Part shown: positions 17,558-62,809 of the stretch, in pieces | Layout of the letters: the number at the start of each line of letters is the position of its first letter | Numbering within the stretch: the first letter of the stretch is position 1 | DNA from: Clostridia bacterium | GTDB lineage: Bacteria > Bacillota > Clostridia > Oscillospirales > Acutalibacteraceae | NCBI GenBank assembly: GCA_017622555.1 | Contig: JAGAQV010000001.1 | Location: forward strand, 124,001-188,000 | Reading direction: 5' to 3' | Length of the DNA stretch: 64,000 nucleotides | The notes under the pieces: model-generated | The model's database searches: none | What the model was told of the DNA's origin: nothing | Seen by the model: the letters and a program-made list of their open reading frames with translations, nothing else | Made by a program: the position numbers and the translations under genes

Positions 17558-17996
17558 TTTCGTCCTCCAAATTTGCTATAAAACGGTTAACCATACTTAA
17601 AAATTGATCAATTTCTTCTTCACTTATACCCTTTCGCAGCTTTAATTCACGCCGCTTGATATCTCTCATAATTTCTTCGTGAATTTTAATTGCCTTATCG
17701 GTTAAAATTATGCGCTTTAAGCGAGCATCACCTTCAACTCTGACACGCTGAATAAAGCCGTTTTGCTCCATAGTTTTTAAAATATTACTTGCAGTTGAAC
17801 GGCGTATTGAAAAACGGTTTTCAAAATCACGCTGAAAAACCTCTTTATCACGGTTGTCATAAAAATAATTAATTGCCCAACCATTAACACCTTTAGGTAA
17901 AACAATTTTGCCCGAAGCCGAGCTTTTTTCAATATCACGCCTAATATAATTTGACAAACGGCGAATATTAAAGCCAATGTTTTTTTCGTGCTGCAT
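17550..17996 (-). CDS. MarR-family transcriptional regulator
   Basis: About 148 residues with a winged helix (FSIRRSTASNILKTMEQNGFIQRVRVEGDARLK) and dimerisation helices at both ends. ATG 17996 has GAGG 6 bases upstream; an in-frame ATG at 18008 is less well placed. It leads the operon with the two ABC genes and overlaps the first. A perfect inverted repeat just downstream of its own -10 box suggests autorepression released by a transporter substrate. Confidence 0.9.
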   Translation of the reverse strand: MQHEKNIGFNIRRLSNYIRRDIEKSSASGKIVLPKGVNGWAINYFYDNRDKEVFQRDFENRFSIRRSTASNILKTMEQNGFIQRVRVEGDARLKRIILTDKAIKIHEEIMRDIKRRELKLRKGISEEEIDQFLSMVNRFIANLEDEND

Positions 17997-18016
17997 AATA
18001 TACCTCACAAATAAAT

Positions 18017-18032
18017 TGTTAGTTACCTAACA
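18017..18032. promoter_or_regulatory. candidate MarR operator
   Basis: TGTTAGTTACCTAACA has 6-base perfect arms and overlaps the end of the -10 box and the transcription start of the marR-ABC promoter, an ideal position for repression. Confidence 0.7.
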
Positions 18033-18060
18033 TTATAATACCATACTCCCCTATTGTCAA
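18032..18060 (-). promoter_or_regulatory. SigA promoter of marR-ABC operon
   Basis: Perfect TTGACA (18055-18060) and perfect TATAAT (18032-18037) with a 17-base spacer on the minus strand. Such a strong promoter is consistent with tight control by a repressor. Confidence 0.85.
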
Positions 18061-18099
18061 CATTTATACCCTTAAAATTCATTATTTATTAACAAAAGA

Positions 18100-18124
18100 A
18101 AACGCCCTTTTAAAAAGGGCGTTT
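18100..18124 (-). terminator. terminator after the split transketolase genes
   Basis: AAACGCCCTTTT/AAAAGGGCGTTT near-perfect 12-bp stem, followed on the minus strand by TTCTTTTGTT. Confidence 0.8.
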
Positions 18125-18140
18125 CAAACTAAAAATGAAA

Positions 18141-19088
18141 TTATTTTTTCAAAGAAATTGCTTTCTTAGCTTTTTCAACAATGTTTAGTGCACGAAGGCC
18201 GAATTCATCCAAAAGCTTAGCCGCAGGGCCGGAATGACCAAACCTGTCATAAACGCCAAGCTTTACAACGGGAACAGGATATTCTTCACCAACACATTCT
18301 GCAACAGCGCTGCCAAGACCGCCTATAACCGAATGTTCTTCAGCGGTGACAATTGCGCCTGTTTCCTTAGCGGCTTTAATAATAATTTCAGCATCTAAGG
18401 GCTTAATAGTTGCAATGTTAACCACACGGGCGCTTATACCCTCTTCTTTCAAAAGGTCATGTGCCTGAAGCGCTTCATTAACCATAAGACCGCTTGCAAC
18501 AATTGTCACGTCAGTGCCTTCACGAAGCTCAACGCCCTTGCCAATTTCAAACTTATAATCATCATCAAAAACAACGGGAACAGGCAAACGGCCAAAGCGT
18601 AAATAAACGGGACCATCATGCTCCATTGCGGCATACATAGCCTTTTTAGCTTCGGTTTCGTCAGCAGGGTTAATAATTGTCATACCAGGGATAGTACGCA
18701 TTAAAGCAATATCCTCGTTACACTGGTGGGTTGCACCATCCTCACCAACCGAAATACCTGCATGGGTTGCACCGATAATTACGTTAAGATGAGGGTAACC
18801 GATGGAGTTGCGCACCTGTTCGAAGGCACGGCCTGCCGCAAACATTGCAAATGATGAGCAAATAACCTTTTTACCTGTTGCCGCAACACCTGCCGCAATG
18901 CTCATCATATTTTGTTCTGCAATACCGCAGTCATAAAACCTTTCGGGGAAAGCAGCCTTAAACTTACCTGTTTGGGTTGCTGCCGCAAGGTCAGCGTCTA
19001 AAACTATAAAATCGTCACGCTTTTCGCCAAGCTCTACAAGAGCAGCACCAAAAGCGGCTCTTGTTGCTACTGTTTTTACATCTGCCAT
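18141..19088 (-). CDS. transketolase, C-terminal subunit
   Basis: 315 residues: pyrimidine-binding domain (about 1-165, with RFYDCGIAEQNM containing the cofactor-activating Glu) and C-terminal domain (YLRFGRLPVP onward). In many Firmicutes transketolase is split into two genes. With the N-terminal subunit it transfers C2 units between sugar phosphates in the non-oxidative pentose phosphate pathway. It lies 15 bp downstream of the N-terminal subunit gene. Confidence 0.93.
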   Translation of the reverse strand: MADVKTVATRAAFGAALVELGEKRDDFIVLDADLAAATQTGKFKAAFPERFYDCGIAEQNMMSIAAGVAATGKKVICSSFAMFAAGRAFEQVRNSIGYPHLNVIIGATHAGISVGEDGATHQCNEDIALMRTIPGMTIINPADETEAKKAMYAAMEHDGPVYLRFGRLPVPVVFDDDYKFEIGKGVELREGTDVTIVASGLMVNEALQAHDLLKEEGISARVVNIATIKPLDAEIIIKAAKETGAIVTAEEHSVIGGLGSAVAECVGEEYPVPVVKLGVYDRFGHSGPAAKLLDEFGLRALNIVEKAKKAISLKK

Positions 19089-51286: not shown

Positions 51287-52513
51287 TTAAACACCTCCTG
51301 TCATAGCAACAGCAACGTTAAGGCTGTCTATATATTTGTCAATATCACGACAATATTGACATTCTAATATCACACCCGAAGTATCGGGTATAAGTGTTAT
51401 GGTATTTGGTGTACTGTCAAAAGTTTCGCCAACTTCGACTGGCTCTTTGTAAGGCTCATAATCCGTGGCAACTGTGCCTATTTCCAGTTGTGTATCTTTC
51501 CAATAAAGTGCACCATCTGTATTAATCAATTTTTGATAAGTGAATGATACACTAGTAGCATTCGAAGGCACAATACCAGTAGCAACTGAGCGTTCCTCCC
51601 CATAACCAAATATATATTTAGTTGTGCCATCTACCACGTAGTTAATACGCACACGCTTATCATATTCACCCGCCGATACTTCTCTGGCTAATGTAGCACT
51701 CAGAGATATCGTTACATCTCTTGGGCATATATCCGTTATATCATAAGTTGGCTGTTGTGTATTTTCGTTTAAATTATCTGGCATATTAATTAAGTTTTTA
51801 CCATATCTATAAACCTCAATACCGCTAAAGTCAGTTATATATGGAGTATAAGCAGTTTGGGTTGCGCCTTCTTCTAATTGGAAAGTATCAACGTCAATAT
51901 AAAGCCAAGTTTTGTACGATACGCTGTCGAAGCCAATATGAGTTATGGTACCGCCTCCAGAAGTCGTAAACGTATATTGCCTCCAAGTGTCAACATCATC
52001 ATAGCCACCGCCAACTGAGATAATACTTCTCGTCCCATCAGCATAATAAAATGTTAGCACGCGAGTACCATAGTCGCATGGGTCCATTCGTTTCGTACGT
52101 TTATACCAAAACGATAACGTATACTGAGTTTTTTCTTTAAAATGGATACCGGTGTATTTAGGATCACCCGCATCTACAAACCTTACACAATTACGTTCAT
52201 CTTCTACAAGTTCGCTGTAATTTGAAGTATTTTTAAATACCTCAGTAGCCAAAGCCAAGTTCTTACTTCGTTTGCTCACACTTACCTTATGTGGCACAGC
52301 AGACATATCATCAATGCGGATGACTTCACCGCTAACGGTAGGATAAATATATTTACTTTCCTTGACAAGTGAAAGTTGCCCAACGCTATAAACATCATTT
52401 ATTTTATTTGCAATTTCACCCGACTTTATAACCTCGGTATCACCTGTTTTTTCACGAATAGCGTCACAAGCGGCGACGTAATCAGCCTTGGGCATTACTG
52501 CATAATCAGTCAT
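51287..52513 (-). CDS. tail-fibre protein with carbohydrate-binding-like domains
   Basis: 408 residues. The N-terminus ([18 protein letters not shown] ... [10 protein letters not shown]) is the short module seen at the start of many Firmicute phage tail fibres. Two beta-sandwich regions follow (about 120-220, [10 protein letters not shown]; and about 235-370), resembling carbohydrate-binding modules. Likely part of host recognition. It overlaps the collagen-like gene by 4 bases. Confidence 0.7.
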
Positions 52514-52929
52514 TGTCCCACCTCCGAAACGTCGGTAAAGTTAGCAAGTACACTGGCGGCTATTTCAGCTTTATCGGCTTCAGTAATTACATAAGCATCG
52601 CCCTTATCACCCTTATCACCCTTATCACCCTGTATTCCTTGTGGGCCCGTGTCACCTTTGACCTTCAGACCTTCAAGTTGTTCCGCAGTAAAATCAGAAT
52701 ACACAAACGGGTCGCCCTTTTTGCCTTGGGGACCTCGCCACCAAGAAAGTTCATTCCAAGGCGTAACTCCGTCACCAATTTTTACTTTGTCTGTTTCATT
52801 GCCGTCAGTTACTACACCAAATTCACCCGAAAGCAATATTGGATTTTTCTCATTCCAATTTGTTAAAGTGTCACTTCGAAATTTAAACCGCGCAGCAGCT
52901 AAAATTTTTATAATATCTTTTTCATTCAT
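52510..52929 (-). CDS. tail-fibre adaptor with collagen-like repeats
   Basis: 139 residues. The N-terminal part ([23 protein letters not shown]) is the tail-attachment module seen in many phage fibres. Gly-X-Y repeats follow (GPQGKKGD and [18 protein letters not shown]). The repeats are coded by a 9-base tandem array (separate entry). Probably trimerises as a collagen-like stalk. Confidence 0.8.
52601..52627. repeat. 9-base tandem repeat coding Gly-Asp-Lys
   Basis: CCCTTATCA three times in tandem (plus a partial copy), coding Gly-Asp-Lys on the minus strand. Gain or loss of copies would keep the frame. Confidence 0.85.
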
Positions 52930-52944
52930 AATCTAATCCCCTTT

Positions 52945-54267
52945 TTATGAAATTCGTTTCCAACAGTAAGCCACTTCGTAAGGAGGTATATTGTTATGAG
53001 GTTGAGAATTACCTATGTCAGAAGAAACTTTGGTAGTGTATGTGTTATTGTTGACTCTTAATAGTTGACCACTAAATTCTACATCTTCATAACTTAATGT
53101 TGCGCCTGCACTTGTATTAACTGCCGATGACATTAAATCGCTATGACTATGACTCGGCATTTCGTCAACTTCCAAAGTATGACGGTATTCGCCGGTATCA
53201 TTCTCACCAGCCGCAAATGTGCGTTCCTCGCCGTTTTTGTCAGTATACGTACCGGCAGCAAGAATAAATTTGCCTTGTACTTGCTCCCAAGTACCTCCAA
53301 AAAGGGTTGCGGGCGAATCGGGTTGAGAGCTCCAATAATAAGAGCCAACGGGGTGTGCGTCTAATTTTGCCTGCTTTTTTGCATCGTTAATCAAGTTGTC
53401 AATATATTCTTTAATGACTTTATTCTTAACTGTGTTTTCGCTCTCATCAGACATCACGTTATCGACATTGTTAATTGAATCATCAACATATCTTTTAATT
53501 ACTCTGTTTTTAACGATATTTTCACTTTCATCAGACATCTCGTTATCGACAACAATTTTAATTCCTGCAGTATTTGCATCGGGTTCGCCATCACCGTCTA
53601 GGTCAACAGCGCCGTCGGCATCGCCACCATCAAAAATCCACACCGTTCCGTTTTCAAGCGCCGCACGGGCAGACTCGGTTTTTTGGGCATTTTCTTTAGC
53701 TCTTTCAACCATTGCTATAAATTCGGGCGTGGCCTCACCCGGTTCACCCTGCTCACCCTTTAATTTGCCGCTATCGTAAGCCTGTTTTACCTCAAGTGCC
53801 GCAACTGAAGCCTCAAGCGCCTTGAGTTCCAACTCCGAATACGAAACACGGTTTTTGCCGTCACTTGCAACACCTTCGGGTAAACTTTCAACCTGAAGCA
53901 ATGCGGGGAAGCTGTATGATTCCATTACCGTATCAGTACCGTCAACGACTGTGAGCACGAGCACAACCTTCACTATACCGCCGTACCGGGTGTCGCGTTC
54001 CTGCAGGGTGTAATAAATGACATAGTCCTCATAGTTTTCCATAACGTCTTCAGAAGACGTTCTAAAAACCTCACCGGTGCCATTATAGATTTCGAATCGG
54101 AAAAACACGCGTTTAGATGCACCGCTCTCTAACGCCGCACGAAGTGCAGGGTCCACTTCAAATTCAAGCCTGACCATATTGTGATGTCCTTGCATACCAA
54201 TCCGCTGCCTGCCCGACGGTGTAATGCCATCAAACCTTACTTGGTAAGTAATTGTTTTATACGCCAT
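52945..54267 (-). CDS. tail-fibre/baseplate protein with collar-type C-terminus
   Basis: 440 residues: an N-terminal beta domain (about 1-140), a helical region with a short collagen-like GEQGEPGEA, a calcium-loop-like DLDGDGEPDAN, two copies of a module (MSDESEN-VKN-VIK-Y, about 240-290) and a C-terminal phage tail-collar domain (HPVGSYYWSS ... EMPSHSHSD ... PPYEVAYCWKR). The C-terminal domain is usual in receptor-binding fibres. Confidence 0.85.
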   Translation of the reverse strand: MAYKTITYQVRFDGITPSGRQRIGMQGHHNMVRLEFEVDPALRAALESGASKRVFFRFEIYNGTGEVFRTSSEDVMENYEDYVIYYTLQERDTRYGGIVKVVLVLTVVDGTDTVMESYSFPALLQVESLPEGVASDGKNRVSYSELELKALEASVAALEVKQAYDSGKLKGEQGEPGEATPEFIAMVERAKENAQKTESARAALENGTVWIFDGGDADGAVDLDGDGEPDANTAGIKIVVDNEMSDESENIVKNRVIKRYVDDSINNVDNVMSDESENTVKNKVIKEYIDNLINDAKKQAKLDAHPVGSYYWSSQPDSPATLFGGTWEQVQGKFILAAGTYTDKNGEERTFAAGENDTGEYRHTLEVDEMPSHSHSDLMSSAVNTSAGATLSYEDVEFSGQLLRVNNNTYTTKVSSDIGNSQPHNNIPPYEVAYCWKRIS

Positions 54268-54337
54268 ATTATGACCTCCATTTTTTTTAATTTAAAAGCG
54301 CCTGACCGTGCGGCCAAACGCTTATAATAAATATTTC

Positions 54338-54366
54338 TTGATTTAATTTTGTGACTATGTTATTAT
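54338..54366 (+). promoter_or_regulatory. SigA promoter of the leader RNA and plus-strand membrane protein
   Basis: TTGATT (54338-54343) and TATTAT (54361-54366), 17-base spacer. Transcription would begin near 54373, exactly at the base of the RNA stem P1. Confidence 0.75.
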
Positions 54367-54372
54367 TTGGTT

Positions 54373-54527
54373 GCGACGTATCTGAATAATTATCCGTAAT
54401 CAGCGCATTTTACAATGGTAAAAATGCGTTTCTTCGCTTTTGCGTTGATACGGAAATGAAGGATGCGTCGCGGCTCCCGAAGTTACGCATTTTTCGGTAC
54501 GTAGCTTCGGCTGCGTACCTTTTTTAT
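54373..54527 (+). ncRNA. structured leader RNA ending in a terminator
   Basis: P1 pairs GCGACGTATC (54373-54382) with GATGCGTCGC (54462-54471), 10 bp with one G-U. Inside, P2 pairs 54394-54405 with 54443-54453 around one bulge. P3 is a hairpin 54406-54413/54418-54426 with an AATG loop. The 3' part CGCATTTTT (54486-54494) is complementary to AAAAATGCG (54420-54428) in P3, so an alternative fold exists. The terminator stem follows. This could be a riboswitch-like leader or an independent small RNA; it matches no class I can name. Confidence 0.6.
54496..54527 (+). terminator. terminator in the leader of the membrane-protein gene
   Basis: GGTACGTAGC-TTCG-GCTGCGTACC stem (one G-U) with a T-run. 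It lies 4 bases before the Shine-Dalgarno AGGGGG of the next gene, so transcription must read through to express it. Confidence 0.85.
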
Positions 54528-54542
54528 TTTAGGGGGATTTTT

Positions 54543-55214
54543 ATGGAACTTTATAAATTCTTTTCTTCGCCAATTTTTTTGGTTGTATTATTTTTAGCAA
54601 CGCTGTTTACTATTTTCGACTTATATGAATTCATAAAATCATTTATAAAAAAGCAAGATATCCGTATGCTTGCCGCCGATATTTTTCAAGTCCACCTATC
54701 GTTTAAAACAGCAAAAATCATTATAGTTATAATTGATTTAGTATTAGCTATTGCGGTTATATTAGGCAGTAATCAGTTTTGGCTTTGGTACGGAAAACGC
54801 GATATTGTAATTATGCCAAGCGGGACATATTGTTATTATGTTTACGCCACCAATGAAAAAGGTCAAACCTACACCCTGCCCGCAAATATTGAAAAAATAA
54901 ACAATAACACTTATTGCGTTTATAACGTTTATTTTAAAAATGGCGGTTATTTGTACTTCTATGATTGCGAATATTTTGATTTTGAGGATACTGAATATGT
55001 AATCGACCAAAACGGAAAAGGTTGGCATATTGAACTTACAAATGAAAAAACCACACACCCGAAAGTAGAGGAAACAGAACCAATTAAACCTTTTGGATTA
55101 GTTCTTCCAATTACCGTTTGTGCGTTATACTTATTGTCAGTACTTTTCCACATAATACATTTAATTCAGCACTACAATATAAACCGTTATAAATACTTCC
55201 CGCCCCTAAAATAA
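54543..55214 (+). CDS. small membrane protein behind a structured leader (moron candidate)
   Basis: 223 residues from ATG 54543 (AGGGGG 6 bases upstream). Two N-terminal membrane helices (about 9-30, 52-75), a beta-rich external part (about 85-175) and a C-terminal helix (about 183-206). The reading frame could be drawn from 54456, but that lies in the structured RNA before the terminator and lacks a ribosome-binding site. No family recognised. It is the only plus-strand phage gene in the region and interrupts the minus-strand late genes, so it is a cargo gene; its role is unknown. Confidence 0.7.
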   Translation: MELYKFFSSPIFLVVLFLATLFTIFDLYEFIKSFIKKQDIRMLAADIFQVHLSFKTAKIIIVIIDLVLAIAVILGSNQFWLWYGKRDIVIMPSGTYCYYVYATNEKGQTYTLPANIEKINNNTYCVYNVYFKNGGYLYFYDCEYFDFEDTEYVIDQNGKGWHIELTNEKTTHPKVEETEPIKPFGLVLPITVCALYLLSVLFHIIHLIQHYNINRYKYFPPLK

Positions 55215-55228
55215 GGGGCGGTTTTTTT
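55200..55228. terminator. terminator between convergent genes
   Basis: CCGCCCCT/AGGGGCGG stem then seven T. It overlaps the stop of the membrane-protein gene and lies at the end of the giant gene. Confidence 0.85.
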
Positions 55229-58200
55229 ATTTCTTCTTAATCGCCAAATAGACATAATAATCTATAGCAGAACCACCGTTCTTTTCGCGGTTTGTAACTG
55301 TTTTATACTGTTTATTCAAATCGTAATCAGAAACCGTTGTTTTCGCTTTTGCGTTTGCATACTCATAAAGGTTTTCAATAACCTCTGCGCGTTCGCCATC
55401 TCCAAGACGCTTATACACGCTGCTATTTACAAATTCGTAAATATAATCGAACGCATATTCGCCCTTGGCTTTTGCGTATGTAACATATTCATCCGCAGTG
55501 AGTTGCTTTGTTTCACCGTTGACTTGAAAACTCTTTGCGGCGGTTTTCGGGAAAACTTTTGCGCCCGTTTCAACAAAAATACGTTTCAACTCTTCGCTAA
55601 CCTCGTCATATTCAACCTTTGAATAATAACCGGGTGAAACAAAGTTTTCGGCAACTCTTTCACCAACATTGCCACGGCTGACCTCTCTGCCCCAGGCATC
55701 AATTTTCGGTATCTGCAGATAAGAAAGCCCAGGTATTTTCGAAGCAACGTTATTCGCTAACGTCTGTGAAAACGCATCAAACACCTTATCGTTTTTATCA
55801 ACATACCAGCTGCGCTGTTTTGGGTCAATTGTGCGGGAAACGGCGCCCGATAACGAAGGTATAACCTGCATTGCATACGAAGTAAGTGCATCACCGGCAA
55901 TCGAGGCAAGAATTTGACTTGGTTCGGCATATCTGCCTGATTCAATAACTCCCTGTAGCCCGCTGAGCATCGAAAGGTTTGTTATCGGCTCTAATGAATT
56001 CCACACTGCATTACCAATTTGCGAAATTGAAAAATCTTCACCTGCATTTATAGTGTTAACTATTTCCGCACCGATGAAGAACGGAATTACACTTGGCGCC
56101 GCCCAGTCAATTGTGTATGAATTACCGAAAATTTCCACAGCATATTCTTGTTTGCCTAAAAGCTTTTCAAAAGCCGATAAGTCGTCATCGTCTTCACCGC
56201 CGCTTATACAACCGAGTGATGCTAGGAACATTCCCGCAAGCATTATTCCAGTACCGGTAAAACCCGATGCTAAACCGTCAATAAATTCAGTCGGGGTTAT
56301 TTTGCCTTTTTTGATGTCAAAAACGCCCTTTGTAAGCGTTTTGGCTAGACCTATCGGGCTGTATTCGATACCACGCTTTACAATATTTATTGGGGTACGC
56401 TTAAACGGTAGCACACCTTCAACGGCCATATTAGTTGCAATATTTTTATTACCAAAATTTTGCACCCAGTTTGCCAAAGCGCTTTCATCATTAAAGGTTG
56501 CTTTTCTTGCTTCATTGACTGCATAAATACGAGCTTCGGCAAGAACGTCTTCCGAAACGTTGTTAAGGTCAACGTCCTTTGCTTGCAGGTAACCCGCCAA
56601 AGCGTGAATATAATGCTTGTTTTTAAACAACATATCTTCAGCTTCCAAAGCGTTGCTGTTAAAGGTTGTCAAAAATTCAAGAACCTCGTTTTTAAAAATA
56701 CGTTGTTTTTCCTTAATGGCTGTTTTATCGTTGTACTTATTGCCCTTAAGCAACTGCACAACCTCCTTGCTTTTGCCGTCTTTTTTGGCAAAGTTGGTAT
56801 ATTCCTTTTTGATTATAAGTGACTTTGTCGCAGAATCGGCTTTGATAATACCTGTTTTAACTGCCGCCTGCTCCATTCCGACAGCCATCGCATACCTTAT
56901 CCTGAAAGCAGGAACAAATATAAGGTTGCCCACAACGTTACGTATATGGGTTTTAGGGTTTGAAAGCATTGCAAAATAACGCCACGCATTCCATTTATCA
57001 AGGAAGGTCACGGGCATTTGCTCGGCGACCTCTTTCAAAACTTCGTCATAAGCATGCTGAATACCGTTTTCGGTTTTTGCATTAACCAAACGCTTTGCGG
57101 CGGCATCACTAATTTTAATGGGTGCTCGGTCCTCACCATACTTTTGCCGCAGGTCCTTGTTAATGGTCCTTACCATTCGTTGTGCGCTTACTAAACGTCC
57201 CGCACCTGTCATTTTCTTTAAAAGTCGTGCCGCCTGAACAATTTGACCTGCGCGTGTGAAAGCGTCAGCAAGCTCAGCCGAAAGCTCAAGCACACGTTTG
57301 GTATCACCGTTTTTTATTGCATCGGCAAGCAACTGTTCACCAATTGCCAACTGATTTTTATTAAAACGCTTACCGTCATTCACGGCATCGGTCCAAATAT
57401 CTTCAGCAGTGCCGTTATTTACGGCTGCTTCAGCTTTTTTGGTTGCCGCTTCATCTGATATTACCGTATAAGCAAAATCACCAAGTAACACCTTTTCTTC
57501 CATACCCTGAAGCATTTCATCACTAAGCTTGCCCGTTTCAATAATTGTACGGGTAAAACGTTCGGTCGGTTTATCTTCCGCTACCGCTTTAGGTGTAGCA
57601 ATTGGTGCTTGTGCATTTTCGCCTTGTGGTAAAGCGCCAAATTCCTCGTTTGACTTGCCCCACAGCTCGTCATTGGTTTTTAGATATTCCTCAAGCGTAA
57701 TTTCTCCGCTATCGTACTTTTGACGGTTTTCTCTCGCTTGCTGTGCCGGCGAACCCAAAGAAAATTGTTCCTTAATATCACTAATATCGGAATAATTTTC
57801 ACTCTCTTCGGATATATTATTCTTGACAGAATCCTCGATATGTGGTATTTTGTTAGTAGGAACAGATTCGCTCACGGTATCTACGCTTAATTGCGGTGCC
57901 GTCATGATGGGCGAGTCTGTTTCTATTATTATAGCTTCATGTAAATAAAATTTTGCATTCTGATTTTTTTGTTTCGGGTAAGTTTTGATTATTAAACCAA
58001 CATATGCTGGTTTACCATCAATAATACCCTTGGCGGCCATAACATATCTGTCCACACCGGTATTGTTATAATTTTCCGTCGTTTGAATGATATTACCTTT
58101 TTCTATAACATCCTTTATAGCTTTTGTTGCTGCCAATTTTTCAGCACCAAAGCCATGAAAAACCGTACTTTTAGCGCCGGATTGTACCAACTCGACTTTA

Positions 58201-61200
58201 CCGAGTTTAGAATTAAATGCCATTTTACCTTGTGTCTCAAAAATATTTAGCACATATTCCGATTTTTTTAATTCATCAGGTATTTGTTCTCCCTCAACGG
58301 AAAAAACACTTTCATTAGATATTGCACTGATATTATCGTTTATGGTCTCAATAATAAATCGACTTTCAGAACTATTTGCATCACCAAAACTAAATTGCAC
58401 ATTAGGCGCCATATCGGCGGCTTTTTTTGTATCCTTCGAAGCGTAAACACGGCTTAAGCGCTGTTCAATATACTCAAGGTCTTCCACAAGTGACTTATTC
58501 TGCGGTACGTGTTTAAGGTTATTTATAAAATCCTTAATAGCGTCAATAACCTTTTGTAATAAAGTACGGTTATCGGTTGCCATTTCACCGAACAAATCAA
58601 GGTCACTTTGCATATCCTTTACCGAATCAATATCCGCATCAGACAATGCCTGTGCAAGATCTTGAATATTTTCCTTGCCTTTAAACAAGGTTTCACCAAC
58701 AAAATCGGCAACAATTTCACGCTTCGCATCGGCCCAAGTGAAGCTTTTACGGATATTTGCAGGAATGGTCGTATCACTTTCAACCCTGTGGTAATAATCT
58801 TCAATAAGATTTTCAAACACGTCGTCGCGGGTTTCAAAATTTTCGTTCGGGTAAATAACCTTTAACTGCGCACGTGCATAGTTTTCAAAAGCAACACTTT
58901 TTTCAAACAGATATTTTTCAAAGGCTTGATACGCTTTTTTACTTTCAAGGCGATGCACAAACTCATGCTTAAATACTTCGTGATACATTTGGGCAATACC
59001 AATATCTTTTGCGAGATAAATTGTATTGGTTTCACGCACGTATTTACCGTTCTTACCGTGAAGCTTATCCGAATTCTTTTCACACCAAATAATCTTAAGG
59101 CCGCTATCAAGCTTCTTTGCAATATCATTAATATGCCGCATTTTGTTATCAAGACGCTTACCCGTCAAAATACCTTCAGCAGTTTCCTCATCGGTTGATT
59201 TACGATATATCGACTTACTGTCTGGTTCCCTGAATCCCATCTCGCCGCTATCGTTATCAGAATGATTTTCAGGCGAATCGGAATAATTTTCACCGTTGTC
59301 GGATATACTACTATTGACTTCTGTACCTTCTTGTGGTACAGTATAGTCATGAGATACCGTTTGCAGAGCGTATCCCTCATTTGGTTTGGGGCGCTCCACA
59401 CCGTTAATTCGGTGGGCGGTATCTCTTATTTTATTTGTAATATCATAGATATGGTACTTTCCATCATTTATACCCTTACCAACATTCAAATACACCGGTA
59501 CGATATCTTTGCCAACACGAACAAATGCACGATAATAGCAAAAATAATTAAACTTATTATGTTCAACATTGTTGTCTTCGGCATATAATTCAGCTTTCTC
59601 AATTATTTCCTTTATTTTGGAAATTTGAGATATTTTTTTGCGTGCGGCTTTGTTGGCGATATGTAAAGCGTCACTTTTATCTACAATAGCATTTTTGCCG
59701 TCGCTTAATGTGATTTTTTGACCACCTAACAGCCCTAAAACATAATCTCTGATTTTGTTATATTTGGGTGCGCCAGTCATATCTCCAAGCAACTGTGCTA
59801 GTTCATTATCATTCGATAAATCAATAACTCGACTTTCATCAATAACACCGTTAACAGCGGTGTTATTATTTTTTGCCGCTACCGTTCCCGAAAAAGTATC
59901 ATTTGTTTCCGAAATGTTACCACTCGTTCCAATATTGGTACCATTTGTTCCCGAAAGACCACCACTCACTCCCTCAGGCTGCGCATTTTCCCCGTTTGCA
60001 CTTGACTGCAAAACAGGGTTTTGTGATTCCTTAAGCGTAATCGCTTCACGCACCTGTGTTTCAACACTCTCAACCTGTGACAGCTCAACCTTCATATTAT
60101 TTACCCATTCGGCATTGGATGTATAATCTTCCTTAACCGAATTAGCAAAATTGTTTTGACTAATAGTCCTCAATTCTAAAGTGCTGATTTTTTGATTTGA
60201 AGCCGCCTTAACAAAAAAGTCGACTGCTGCCTTCACTTCTGACGGTTTAAAATTCATTTGTGTGGCACGGGTTTCTAAGAAATTTTTAATAGTATTCCCT
60301 TTTTGAGTTGAGGCATCCGCTAGAATTTGTGTTGCTAGTCCTCCTAAAGAAGCATTACTTGTTTTATTGCCGTTTTGTAATTTTTTGGCCATTTTATATG
60401 ATTCGGAATTTTTGTCCATTGATAAACCGACTTGAATTACCGAATCCTGCGAATTGTTGTCAACGATTATTTTACCAATTGAAGATGCATTGTGACGGCT
60501 TACTCCACCACCAAGTACACCAAAGCCAAAACCCATCAATGCGCCAGAGGCCGCTGCTTCAACAACCTGTAGGCCCAAGCTGCAGGCCGCTTTAAATTGT
60601 GCCTTTCCGAGCGAATAGCCTTCGTCTTGATATTGACTTACAAGATTTGTGTAATTTGAAATATCGGTATTTACAATTGTATCATATAAAATGTTTGCAA
60701 TTTCTGTTAAACCTTCTTCCGAAGCATTAACAAGCATTGATTTACCTATATTTTTAACGACCGATTTTAAAGACGTTTCGGCAATTTCTTTAAAAGCTTG
60801 TAAATTACCAATTGAAAGTTTTTCAAAAAGCGATTCAAAAGTACCGGCAACCAAACCGCCCCAAAACGCTTGTGAAGAAGTGCCTCCGCGTTTCAATATA
60901 TCATTAGTGGTGTCGGCTGCAGCCGAAAGGCCCAAGGTTAACGCACCGGCCCAACCTGCAGGTGCAACAACTAGAGAATCAGCGCCCGACATAACTGTAT
61001 TATAAACAAAATCGAATGCATCCCAGCCCGCAATTTCGATATCAACAGCATCACTAACGCCTGCTCTTAAAGCTGAACTGTATTCGGAACCGTAATTACT
61101 CTCAAGCTCAACATTCTGGCCTAAAACTTTCCCAACGCCATATTCAAGCATATTAACGCCATGGTCCAAACCGCTCGCTAATTTTAATGGTACTGATACA

Positions 61201-61913
61201 ACCGATGCCGCTATCGCATTAAAAGCATTGTTCCCACTTGTTTCTCTAACCTCGTCCATTTCTATGGCGCTATTAACTTCTTTGGCAAACTTCTTTGCCG
61301 CTTCAAGACCGTTTTCACGATACTCACTTGCTAAACGATTCTTTTGCTCTTGAGTCCATTTAGAAGTTATTTCATACGGCTTGGTATCCAATTTTGCAAG
61401 CTTGCGGGCATTAAAATAATTATATACGCCAATACCTGCCATAGAATCCGGTGCCATTAAAGCGCCCACCTGTCCTTGATTAACTATATCGGCGCTCGCT
61501 TTTGCGTTGTTTTCCTTTAATGCCGCAATTGCTGTAGTATATTCCGTGATATATGGTTCCGATTCTTTGGCATCAGCCTTTGCTGCGGCATATTCGTGAT
61601 TATACGAAGCAGATATAGGACTTGATAAAAGAAAATCACGTTGTTCTGTTTCTTTTTGGGCTTTTATAACCGGGTCAGTATTCGGAATAACCGTTTCGCC
61701 TTTAGAATTGGTAACATAATTAAGGCGGTTACGAGAAGCACGAATATCAGAAAAAATATTTTCTGTCATGATTTTTTTATTTTGCACCACTCCGCCAGAC
61801 ATTCCCGCTTCCATTATAACGTTTCCGCCGTTAACGTTTGTCGTTGCCTTATTATCAACAGTATCGCCCAGCTTTCCGCCGCTTGCACCTGCTTCTAATA
61901 TTAATTTTCCCAT
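55227..61913 (-). CDS. giant polyvalent virion protein with metallopeptidase and nuclease-like domains
   Basis: 2228 residues from ATG 61913 (GGGGGTG upstream). Numbering here is from that start. N-terminus: two copies of an ILEAGASGG-like motif. About 230-480: hydrophobic, membrane-seeking helices. About 695-860: an LPD/nuclease-like domain. About 983-987: HEFVH zinc motif with downstream REIVADFVGE, a likely metallopeptidase. About 1185-1335: a second nuclease-like domain (VFHGFGAEKLAATKAIKD). About 1450-1620: helical. About 1630-2080: LPD38-like region with PFKRTPINIVKRGIEYSP and membrane helices. Such proteins occur in phages and conjugative elements and probably enter the cell with the DNA. 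Confidence 0.8.
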   Translation of the reverse strand: MGKLILEAGASGGKLGDTVDNKATTNVNGGNVIMEAGMSGGVVQNKKIMTENIFSDIRASRNRLNYVTNSKGETVIPNTDPVIKAQKETEQRDFLLSSPISASYNHEYAAAKADAKESEPYITEYTTAIAALKENNAKASADIVNQGQVGALMAPDSMAGIGVYNYFNARKLAKLDTKPYEITSKWTQEQKNRLASEYRENGLEAAKKFAKEVNSAIEMDEVRETSGNNAFNAIAASVVSVPLKLASGLDHGVNMLEYGVGKVLGQNVELESNYGSEYSSALRAGVSDAVDIEIAGWDAFDFVYNTVMSGADSLVVAPAGWAGALTLGLSAAADTTNDILKRGGTSSQAFWGGLVAGTFESLFEKLSIGNLQAFKEIAETSLKSVVKNIGKSMLVNASEEGLTEIANILYDTIVNTDISNYTNLVSQYQDEGYSLGKAQFKAACSLGLQVVEAAASGALMGFGFGVLGGGVSRHNASSIGKIIVDNNSQDSVIQVGLSMDKNSESYKMAKKLQNGNKTSNASLGGLATQILADASTQKGNTIKNFLETRATQMNFKPSEVKAAVDFFVKAASNQKISTLELRTISQNNFANSVKEDYTSNAEWVNNMKVELSQVESVETQVREAITLKESQNPVLQSSANGENAQPEGVSGGLSGTNGTNIGTSGNISETNDTFSGTVAAKNNNTAVNGVIDESRVIDLSNDNELAQLLGDMTGAPKYNKIRDYVLGLLGGQKITLSDGKNAIVDKSDALHIANKAARKKISQISKIKEIIEKAELYAEDNNVEHNKFNYFCYYRAFVRVGKDIVPVYLNVGKGINDGKYHIYDITNKIRDTAHRINGVERPKPNEGYALQTVSHDYTVPQEGTEVNSSISDNGENYSDSPENHSDNDSGEMGFREPDSKSIYRKSTDEETAEGILTGKRLDNKMRHINDIAKKLDSGLKIIWCEKNSDKLHGKNGKYVRETNTIYLAKDIGIAQMYHEVFKHEFVHRLESKKAYQAFEKYLFEKSVAFENYARAQLKVIYPNENFETRDDVFENLIEDYYHRVESDTTIPANIRKSFTWADAKREIVADFVGETLFKGKENIQDLAQALSDADIDSVKDMQSDLDLFGEMATDNRTLLQKVIDAIKDFINNLKHVPQNKSLVEDLEYIEQRLSRVYASKDTKKAADMAPNVQFSFGDANSSESRFIIETINDNISAISNESVFSVEGEQIPDELKKSEYVLNIFETQGKMAFNSKLGKVELVQSGAKSTVFHGFGAEKLAATKAIKDVIEKGNIIQTTENYNNTGVDRYVMAAKGIIDGKPAYVGLIIKTYPKQKNQNAKFYLHEAIIIETDSPIMTAPQLSVDTVSESVPTNKIPHIEDSVKNNISEESENYSDISDIKEQFSLGSPAQQARENRQKYDSGEITLEEYLKTNDELWGKSNEEFGALPQGENAQAPIATPKAVAEDKPTERFTRTIIETGKLSDEMLQGMEEKVLLGDFAYTVISDEAATKKAEAAVNNGTAEDIWTDAVNDGKRFNKNQLAIGEQLLADAIKNGDTKRVLELSAELADAFTRAGQIVQAARLLKKMTGAGRLVSAQRMVRTINKDLRQKYGEDRAPIKISDAAAKRLVNAKTENGIQHAYDEVLKEVAEQMPVTFLDKWNAWRYFAMLSNPKTHIRNVVGNLIFVPAFRIRYAMAVGMEQAAVKTGIIKADSATKSLIIKKEYTNFAKKDGKSKEVVQLLKGNKYNDKTAIKEKQRIFKNEVLEFLTTFNSNALEAEDMLFKNKHYIHALAGYLQAKDVDLNNVSEDVLAEARIYAVNEARKATFNDESALANWVQNFGNKNIATNMAVEGVLPFKRTPINIVKRGIEYSPIGLAKTLTKGVFDIKKGKITPTEFIDGLASGFTGTGIMLAGMFLASLGCISGGEDDDDLSAFEKLLGKQEYAVEIFGNSYTIDWAAPSVIPFFIGAEIVNTINAGEDFSISQIGNAVWNSLEPITNLSMLSGLQGVIESGRYAEPSQILASIAGDALTSYAMQVIPSLSGAVSRTIDPKQRSWYVDKNDKVFDAFSQTLANNVASKIPGLSYLQIPKIDAWGREVSRGNVGERVAENFVSPGYYSKVEYDEVSEELKRIFVETGAKVFPKTAAKSFQVNGETKQLTADEYVTYAKAKGEYAFDYIYEFVNSSVYKRLGDGERAEVIENLYEYANAKAKTTVSDYDLNKQYKTVTNREKNGGSAIDYYVYLAIKKK

Positions 61914-61924
61914 ATTTACACCCC

Positions 61925-62809
61925 CTACCAAATTACTTGGTTACGTGCTTTCCATTGATTATCTTTTAAATACACTTCAATATAGGCATTATTGCCACGG
62001 CTCCAAACCCAGTATTTTTTGTTGCTACCTTCACCGGTATAAAAAACATTTTGGTTTTGCCCGAACGCTTTCCACGCACCCTTGTCGGCCAACTTTAATT
62101 TTTCGCCCTTAATATTGTTGGGCTGGTATCCGTTATCAAACGCACCATTTTCAACATCATTGTTTTTAGTGTCGGTATAAGGGTTAAACTTACTGTTAAT
62201 TTTTTTGGTGACGCCCGTAGCATAATCCGTGTAAATCGTATATCCTTCTTCGCTCGTATAATCAACCGCGATACTGTTTTGCCCTAGACTTCCTGTATAA
62301 TACGGATTCAAGTTTCCCTCAGCACTCATCAATAAACCGGTTTTACCTGTAGGAGTTTTAATAACGGCCGCCTCAGCTGCAGCTTTTGCCTGTGCGGCTT
62401 CATATTCAGCCTCTAAACCGTCATAGGTTTCATCCACACCGGCGGTGGCTGAAATACGGTTTTGCTCAATGGTGGAAAGCTTGCTGTCACGGTCAAGATT
62501 ATATGCATTTATATCCGCCTGCTTCTGACGGTTTAAATTATAGGCCGCATTTGCCGCTGAAAGCTGTACCGCTGTTTGCTGGGTTCGGTTAAGGCCCGAA
62601 TCGGTTAAACCCAAATTAGCCATACTTTCGGCAACCTTACGCTCGTTTATAAGCTTTTGCACCGCTACCGCACGCTGCTGGTCATCATAAGCGGTACCGA
62701 TTTCTTTAACACCTGCAGCGTGTGCCTTGTTAACCTGCTCGGCCTGCAGGTCATGAATATCATTAACCTTCTTTTTGGCTTCGGCCCTTTGTGTAGAATA
62801 CACCGCCAT
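61925..62809 (-). CDS. internal virion-type protein
   Basis: 294 residues. The N-terminal half (about 5-145) is a helical coiled-coil rich in Ala/Lys/Glu/Gln (NLGLTDSGLNRTQQTAVQL); the C-terminal half is a compact domain ending KYWVWSRGNNAYIEVYLKDNQW. No known family. It lies between the partial tail-hub-like gene (1-base overlap) and the giant gene, a place that suits an ejected or internal virion protein of a short-tailed phage. Confidence 0.6.
   Translation of the reverse strand: MAVYSTQRAEAKKKVNDIHDLQAEQVNKAHAAGVKEIGTAYDDQQRAVAVQKLINERKVAESMANLGLTDSGLNRTQQTAVQLSAANAAYNLNRQKQADINAYNLDRDSKLSTIEQNRISATAGVDETYDGLEAEYEAAQAKAAAEAAVIKTPTGKTGLLMSAEGNLNPYYTGSLGQNSIAVDYTSEEGYTIYTDYATGVTKKINSKFNPYTDTKNNDVENGAFDNGYQPNNIKGEKLKLADKGAWKAFGQNQNVFYTGEGSNKKYWVWSRGNNAYIEVYLKDNQWKARNQVIW

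Follow-up and report, generated by a model that had tools for sequence, protein, structure and literature searches.

The window analysed here, a 64,000-nucleotide stretch of a clostridial genome, carries within a prophage a gene encoding a 223-aa protein, which shows by eye hydrophobic stretches near both ends and is preceded by a promoter, a structured RNA and an intrinsic terminator (Table 1). Minus-strand neighbours include tail, tail-fibre, endolysin, holin and virion-structure proteins, so that the element and its gene, which run the other way, lie within the prophage structural region. On that strand, 52510–52929 encodes a small protein resembling tail fibres, with an N terminus like Mtd_N and a weak match to collagen-like sequence, and 55227–61931, convergent with the gene behind the RNA, encodes a phage protein of 2234 aa, a large polyvalent protein bearing an LPD3 domain.

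The 223-aa protein matched no Pfam family at the cut-off and no PHROGs family, 39 database entries (itself included) matched it, and no relative was found in the viral contigs searched. Among 296 related genomes, homologues were restricted to two of the same genus as the window (G037 and G027), and the RNA is absent before them. Those of G037 lie at C56:14783–15436 and 17855–18292, one of them adjoining what by eye is apparently the same polyvalent phage gene. The RNA thus behaves as a module that genes of this one kind may have in front of them or lack.

Table 1. Features of the RNA element and of the gene behind it (window coordinates).
Feature	Coordinates	Strand	Basis
Sigma-70-type promoter, TTGATT-17-TATTAT, TG before the −10	54338–54366	+	Sequence; extended −10 likewise placed in 85/92 homologues
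Whole RNA element	54371–54524	+	Match to covariance model R1, 113 bits
P1, 5' strand	54370–54383	+	Predicted fold; double-sided changes in all 8 model pairs
P1, 3' strand	54461–54474	+	Predicted fold; covariation
P2, 5' side (sequence varies freely, pairing kept)	54389–54407	+	Predicted fold; double-sided changes in all 11 model pairs
P2, 3' side	54441–54457	+	Predicted fold; covariation
P3 hairpin, U-rich 5' arm, A-rich 3' arm	54408–54423	+	Predicted fold; covariation
Segment B (P3 3' side and following bases), predicted pseudoknot strand partnering the linker	54420–54436	+	Complementarity; cognate pairing z −9.0; covariation
Linker, predicted partner of segment B (pseudoknot) or of the terminator 5' arm (antiterminator)	54475–54495	+	Complementarity, energies, covariation
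Predicted antiterminator hairpin, 54477–54487 with 54500–54510, −16.0 kcal/mol	54477–54510	+	Complementarity, energies, covariation
Intrinsic terminator, 10 pairs, UUCG loop, six U, −15.8 kcal/mol	54496–54525	+	9/10 model pairs double-changed
Shine-Dalgarno AGGGGGA	54531–54537	+	Sequence
Gene predicted to be controlled, 223-aa protein	54543–55214	+	Inside prophage
Terminator-like hairpin at the end of the gene	55200–55228	+	Sequence

In the region 52000–57000, neither promoter-like matches (14 versus 13.2 in shuffles) nor terminator-like matches (4 versus 5.0) exceeded chance, and the promoter and terminator of the window are credible because homologues keep both, not from match counts alone. 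P1 begins about 4 bases 3' of the promoter, and its base is therefore the predicted transcription start. This agrees with the promoter placement proposed by an earlier, sequence-only reading of the locus, which had assigned 10 bp to the closing stem, whereas the predicted fold has 14 pairs. The roughly 100 bases of nested stems described in that reading were borne out, as the fold of 54370–54477 reached −47.3 kcal/mol against −25.0 (sd 3.1) in shuffles (z −7.2) and that of 54370–54540 gave z −6.9, with 0 of 200 shuffles as stable in either case. Similarly, the terminator hairpin (54496–54519, followed by six T) does lie just before the Shine-Dalgarno sequence, at a distance of 5 bases rather than the 4 originally given, since the T run ends at 54525 and AGGGGGA starts at 54531. 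A 9-base complement reported between P3 and the region preceding the terminator was recovered as 54420–54428 with 54486–54494, and is extended by five further pairs (54432–54436 with 54478–54482) to 17 bases with 88% complementarity. The antiterminator is an addition to the sequence-only reading, in which it was overlooked: the partner of the linker is here the 5' arm and loop of the terminator, and 11 of 11 positions pair (10 Watson-Crick and one G-U). An open frame at 54456–55214 begins inside the RNA, crosses the terminator and enters the gene in frame; the homologues showed no conserved frame of this type.

Distribution and identity of the RNA family

A DNA search with 54365–54530 found relatives in many related genomes, its tally of 197 out of 198 having been obtained at an E limit of 10 and being therefore not a prevalence, and an exact pattern for the terminator end identified 84 stretches from clostridial or Bacillota metagenome-assembled genomes, many labelled gut or rumen. 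Those relatives that have names are clostridial, many of them from animal guts. A covariance model (R1) was derived from 97 distinct elements, through 64 usable seeds and 46 diverse sequences, of which 45 were aligned and one was left out; the window copy (L002) is among these 45, so its R1 score is partly by construction. Most of the 45 sequences had been picked by the terminator-end pattern and are uninformative on conservation there; we therefore used instead an alignment (A2) of model-found members from the better-scoring listed matches, some chosen because tandem, which was meant to avoid the pattern bias. A2 comprises 79 of 80 fetched stretches and the window aligned to the model (97 matches), and a 92-member set was obtained from it by removing five weak, misaligned or cut-off rows.

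At E values up to 0.001, the covariance model detected the RNA in 141 of 394 genomes of the same order and in 79 of 291 genomes of the same class, the latter with a total of at least about 377 matches; these scans used stricter filters and scored 7 or 10 candidates per genome, so that copy numbers are lower bounds. A phylum-wide draw contained one RNA-positive genome out of 249, the window's own. Ten genomes scanned deeply harboured 5 to 16 copies each (84 matches), and the window's own genome a single copy, its next matches having E values of 0.5 and 9.9. Two unannotated phage records from human faeces also contain the RNA (MT835845.1:2076–2231 and MT837627.1:2227–2346), the second match corresponding to 74% of the query and the gene behind the first looking lipoprotein-like, while the remaining 14 matches among phage records had E values of 0.3 or more. 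Viral contigs contained no exact match to two element patterns, and the plasmids searched gave no match.

Members of the family share one order of parts, in which the promoter is followed at once by P1 and then by P2, P3, the linker, the terminator and a U run. By loose word patterns, an extended −10 lies within 25 bases before P1 in 85 of 92 members, at a nearly fixed distance, and a −35-like word is found upstream in 88 of 92. In longer members of about 210 bases (L027 4188, L041 2772, L021), the P2/P3 region contains additional sequence, part of it a hairpin. Complete promoter-RNA-terminator units also stand in tandem, three or four to an array (G408:C60:23364–24333, G253:C48:10250–10810, L215, L218 and L219), with gaps of roughly 45 to 110 bases, shorter than an ordinary gene.

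Many copies per genome, tandem copies, varied genes behind them and presence in a prophage might be expected of a mobile, MITE-like repeat carrying a promoter and a terminator by chance. Copies from one genome, however, excised by a rough rule, are about as different from one another (identity 0.49–0.77 in five sets, two of which yielded 2 of their 3 copies) as copies from different genomes (mean 0.69, 60 rows), and all five helices of the family contain double-changed pairs, which are unexpected of relics, making this explanation very improbable. Copies within one fetched stretch had identities of 0.62–0.82, with one pair at 0.99.

The sequence-only reading had recognised no known riboswitch class. 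Accordingly, no Rfam (release 15) family reached its threshold in the window or in the elements of 46 further loci, which gave one chance-level partial overlap, to sau-5971 (21.2 bits versus 90, in L174). The best loose match of the window was istR (24.7 bits versus 45 needed, E 0.0048), a poor fit that was rejected, and for 54280–54620 the Rfam matches with E values up to 10 did not include T-box. Gut-1-like matches near a few elements were likewise discarded, as they lay outside the element and the one inspected was a repeated palindrome. Upstream of the RNA unit of L197 (1795–1955), Gut-1-like palindromes, one of them above the Rfam threshold, have the look of repeated hairpins. The literature searched contained no description of the RNA class, which may nevertheless have an entry in the large human-microbiome candidate list of PMC8040213. 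Judged by its sequence and predicted fold, 54371–54524 is a member of a structured RNA class without an Rfam family.

The linker and its two predicted partners

Compensatory change was evaluated on the 97 matches of A2, an alignment fitted to the nested helices and neither to the pseudoknot nor to the antiterminator. In the nested helices 95.8% of cells were paired and 523 were double-changed, against 126.5 (sd 10.1) in shuffles; the corresponding values were 92.8% and 69 against 19.3 (sd 3.9) for the pseudoknot, and 88.3% and 29 against 17.2 (sd 3.9) for the antiterminator. In none of the three sets was the double-changed count reached by any of 500 shuffles, a test which is inflated by the relatedness of the sequences. 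The covariation check proposed in the sequence-only reading thus found abundant homologues and strong compensatory change in the nested helices, and the alternative fold suggested there between P3 and the region before the terminator finds its counterpart in the double-changed pseudoknot pairing. With stricter counts the antiterminator fell within the shuffle range (pairs with a double change, 234 of 500 shuffles; pair types, 51 of 500), the values for the pseudoknot being 15 and 45 of 500, respectively. Sliding the partners by one to three columns lowered the paired cells from 92.8% to 39–65% for the pseudoknot and from 88.3% to 27–63% for the antiterminator, as is partly expected of columns set from the consensus.

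Duplex energies were also compared between cognate and permuted partners in 78 members (one per locus, duplicates removed). Cognate pairing was favoured for segment B with the linker (z −9.0, 0 of 5000 permutations) and for the linker with the terminator arm (z −8.1, 0 of 5000), in contrast to the control pair of segment B with the terminator arm (z −1.0, 790 of 5000), which has the same relatedness. The linker is predicted to have two mutually exclusive partners, both backed by compensatory change.

Energies of the competing folds were obtained as nearest-neighbour estimates, which are blind to pseudoknot geometry and kinetics. In the window they amounted to −18.9 kcal/mol for the pseudoknot duplex, −17.8 for the duplex of linker and terminator, −16.0 for the antiterminator hairpin and −15.8 for the terminator. 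Means over the 92 members were −15.2 kcal/mol for the terminator, −14.8 for the best fold of linker and terminator arm and −16.5 for the pseudoknot duplex, and the pseudoknot would retain an estimated mean net gain of −11.2 once the cost of freeing segment B is counted; the antiterminator was weaker than the terminator in 50 of 92. In a nested model of the window, a transcript ending at 54510 would form the antiterminator with a probability of 0.96–1.0 per pair, and the full transcript would form the terminator at 0.735 and the antiterminator at 0.265. Timing would thus matter, the antiterminator being near-certain at 54510 but the terminator favoured once complete. On these estimates, terminator and antiterminator are near-isoenergetic, which is the balance that a switch requires. 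Counting against a switch, P3 and the pseudoknot would compete for the same A run, and the pseudoknot would have to span P1 and P2.

We consider it likely that the RNA class acts, in the leader of the following gene, as a two-way switch of transcription, in which the pseudoknot would be the OFF state and a common metabolite, ion or general factor would set the balance. Transcription would begin at P1, and RNA polymerase would first produce P1, P2 and P3. The emerging linker may then pair back on the 3' side of P3 as a pseudoknot, leaving the terminator free and ending the transcript at about 54525; with the pseudoknot absent or blocked, the linker would take the 5' arm of the terminator, which could not close, and polymerase would read through into the gene. 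Polymerase transcribes segment B first, then the linker and last the terminator, which would give the pseudoknot the first chance. What the sequences show are the possible pairings with their compensatory evolution, the conserved promoter, the terminator and the spacing to the gene; both the exchange of the two folds in the cell and the pseudoknot as OFF state are inferred. A common metabolite, ion or general transcription factor might act, in a riboswitch-like manner, by stabilising or loosening the pseudoknot. The window's prophage must presumably rely on a signal available in a host with no other detected copy, and a signal common to many hosts would therefore fit best. The switch layout already perceived in the window has gained in support from the abundance of homologues, their compensatory changes and the predicted antiterminator.

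Promoter, alternative folds and terminator are also the classic layout of a leader-peptide attenuator, and many members contain an AUG in segment B. That AUG, however, is not invariant and its bases change along with the linker, and Shine-Dalgarno-preceded frames of at least five codons ending inside the RNA occur in 7 of 92 members at no common position, so that a leader peptide is extremely improbable.

Genes behind the RNA and alternative readings

A Shine-Dalgarno sequence and a start codon within 40 bases of the element end were found for 133 of 189 distinct elements (59 of 93 from A2 and 74 of 96 from the first set). By the rule used, the other 56, some of them at contig ends, have none, and they count against a switch in the leader of the following gene. 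A chosen start with a Shine-Dalgarno sequence lies within 130 bases in 156 elements, and in 121 of these the start is 15–29 bases past the element end. Considering distinct downstream proteins of at least 120 aa and a simple rule, an N-terminal hydrophobic signal was present in 63 of 88, compared with 106 of 388 other Shine-Dalgarno-preceded genes of the same loci (Fisher p 2e-14), and 24 of 88 were lipoprotein-like, compared with 24 of 388 (p 1e-7). Pfam content was scattered over 45 families in 92 downstream proteins, the 25 listed including LRR_5 (8, the largest), WG (4), zinc ribbons (4), AMP-binding (3) and DUF6809 (3); BspA-type repeats, dockerin and SLH were each found in few members. 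A phage-defence library matched the same 92 proteins with 22 families, the largest with 2 members, and no common system. The downstream theme appears to be one of exported and accessory proteins and of no single pathway. The sequence-only reading had set the RNA before a phage membrane-protein gene, which holds for the window but not for the family, as many unrelated genes lie behind it; the homologues of that gene in G037 and G027, which lack the RNA, count against the switch.

Alternatively, the RNA might act mainly in trans, as a small RNA whose terminator merely ends it, the gene receiving low and unregulated read-through. Promoter-like and terminator sequences kept across the family would suit such an RNA, as would the tandem units, which account for 9 of the 84 matches of ten genomes (four in G408:C60, three in G253:C48 and two in G245:C41, with gaps of 44 to 140 bases) and carry a promoter-like sequence each in the G408:C60 and G253:C48 arrays (L218, L219). 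Units that each have a promoter and are spaced too closely to leave room for a gene suit a trans-acting RNA equally well and count against the switch; arrays of complete units are not accounted for by a purely cis model. An unregulated terminator, however, has no need of a linker that co-evolves with its arm, and the clustering of start codons behind the element, together with the non-random, frequently hydrophobic-signal-bearing downstream proteins, also counts against this reading. We therefore regard a mainly trans-acting function as unlikely.

The same two-fold switch could instead be read by a dedicated RNA-binding antiterminator protein of the LoaP or BglG/SacY type. Protein-read leaders have the same layout, and the sequence of P1 is retained at several positions despite covariation (G3-C in 89 of 97, C4-G in 90 of 97 and A6-U in 92 of 97). 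Yet a second NusG-like gene was found in none of 23 RNA-positive genomes (22 with one, G210 with none) as opposed to 2 of 25 RNA-negative genomes, and a CAT_RBD protein in 0 of 23 as opposed to 4 of 25, searches that speak, at the sensitivity used, to the LoaP and BglG/SacY types. A dedicated protein as reader of the switch seems less likely, and we hold one of these types to be quite unlikely.

Known systems offer partial parallels. Transcription-attenuating riboswitches combine a conserved body, a linker with two partners, an intrinsic terminator and a Shine-Dalgarno sequence. The RNA class resembles them in its body, its predicted choosing linker, its intrinsic terminator and its Shine-Dalgarno sequence, and differs in its built-in promoter at a fixed place, in the occurrence of complete units in tandem, in its orphan status, in matching no Rfam family and in apparently lacking a single gene theme. 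Among the features that characterise riboswitches, a conserved structured body upstream of a gene was found, and mutually exclusive folds in the expression platform are indicated by sequence, energy and covariation. Type III toxin-antitoxin leaders (toxI-toxN) consist of a promoter, a pseudoknotted structured RNA, a terminator and a gene. In contrast to these, many unrelated families (the largest with 8 of 92) and not one toxin lie behind the RNA class, and no short repeats were seen within the unit; toxI-toxN is mentioned in PMC8040213.

Among published candidates, PMC11109978 describes a trpB motif and another preceding a formate-tetrahydrofolate ligase gene, both with terminator competition, to which the RNA class is alike, as far as that description goes, in a terminator that faces a competing antiterminator or may form a pseudoknot with the hairpin preceding it. 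Those candidates are tied to metabolic genes and the word "Clostridia" is absent from the main text, differences drawn from description. The SLH motif is a riboswitch candidate with 80 examples, about 60% of them before S-layer homology genes, described from Clostridia among other hosts, also Synergistaceae and Negativicutes (PMC6429828). Occurrence in Clostridia and cell-surface genes behind the RNA are shared with that description; compared by description, the RNA class differs in that an SLH domain occurs in 1 of 92 downstream proteins and that the phylum draw gave no second genome.

Most likely, then, the RNA constitutes a new orphan class of riboswitch-like attenuator, here apparently used by a prophage cargo gene. 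More tentatively, and with somewhat less than even confidence, we propose an abundant orphan riboswitch class of Clostridia that would sense one common metabolite or second messenger and govern a large share of the proteins that the cell exports or uses as accessories. It would be a portable promoter-switch-terminator unit placed before unrelated cargo, and the prophage would have taken it up so that its own cargo gene responds to signals of the host. If true, this would be an abundant and uncharacterised RNA of gene control, carried by about a third of the sampled genomes of one order and reaching 16 copies in one genome, and it would link numerous exported and accessory genes, along with at least one cargo gene of a prophage, to a single signal. 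Covariation makes both alternative folds legible, something that expression platforms seldom allow, and the covariance model makes a search for the ligand directly testable.

Proximity to tRNA genes, suggested at first by 4 of 19 loci, was set aside, as 9 of 50 loci (mostly of 8 kb, drawn from the 84 pattern loci) was subjectively judged unremarkable. Six units (L009, L018, L031, L052, L054 and L060) precede AMP-binding-enzyme-like genes with a similar N terminus, and a tRNA gene lies shortly upstream of four of them (L018, L031, L054 and L060; L052 was outside the scan).
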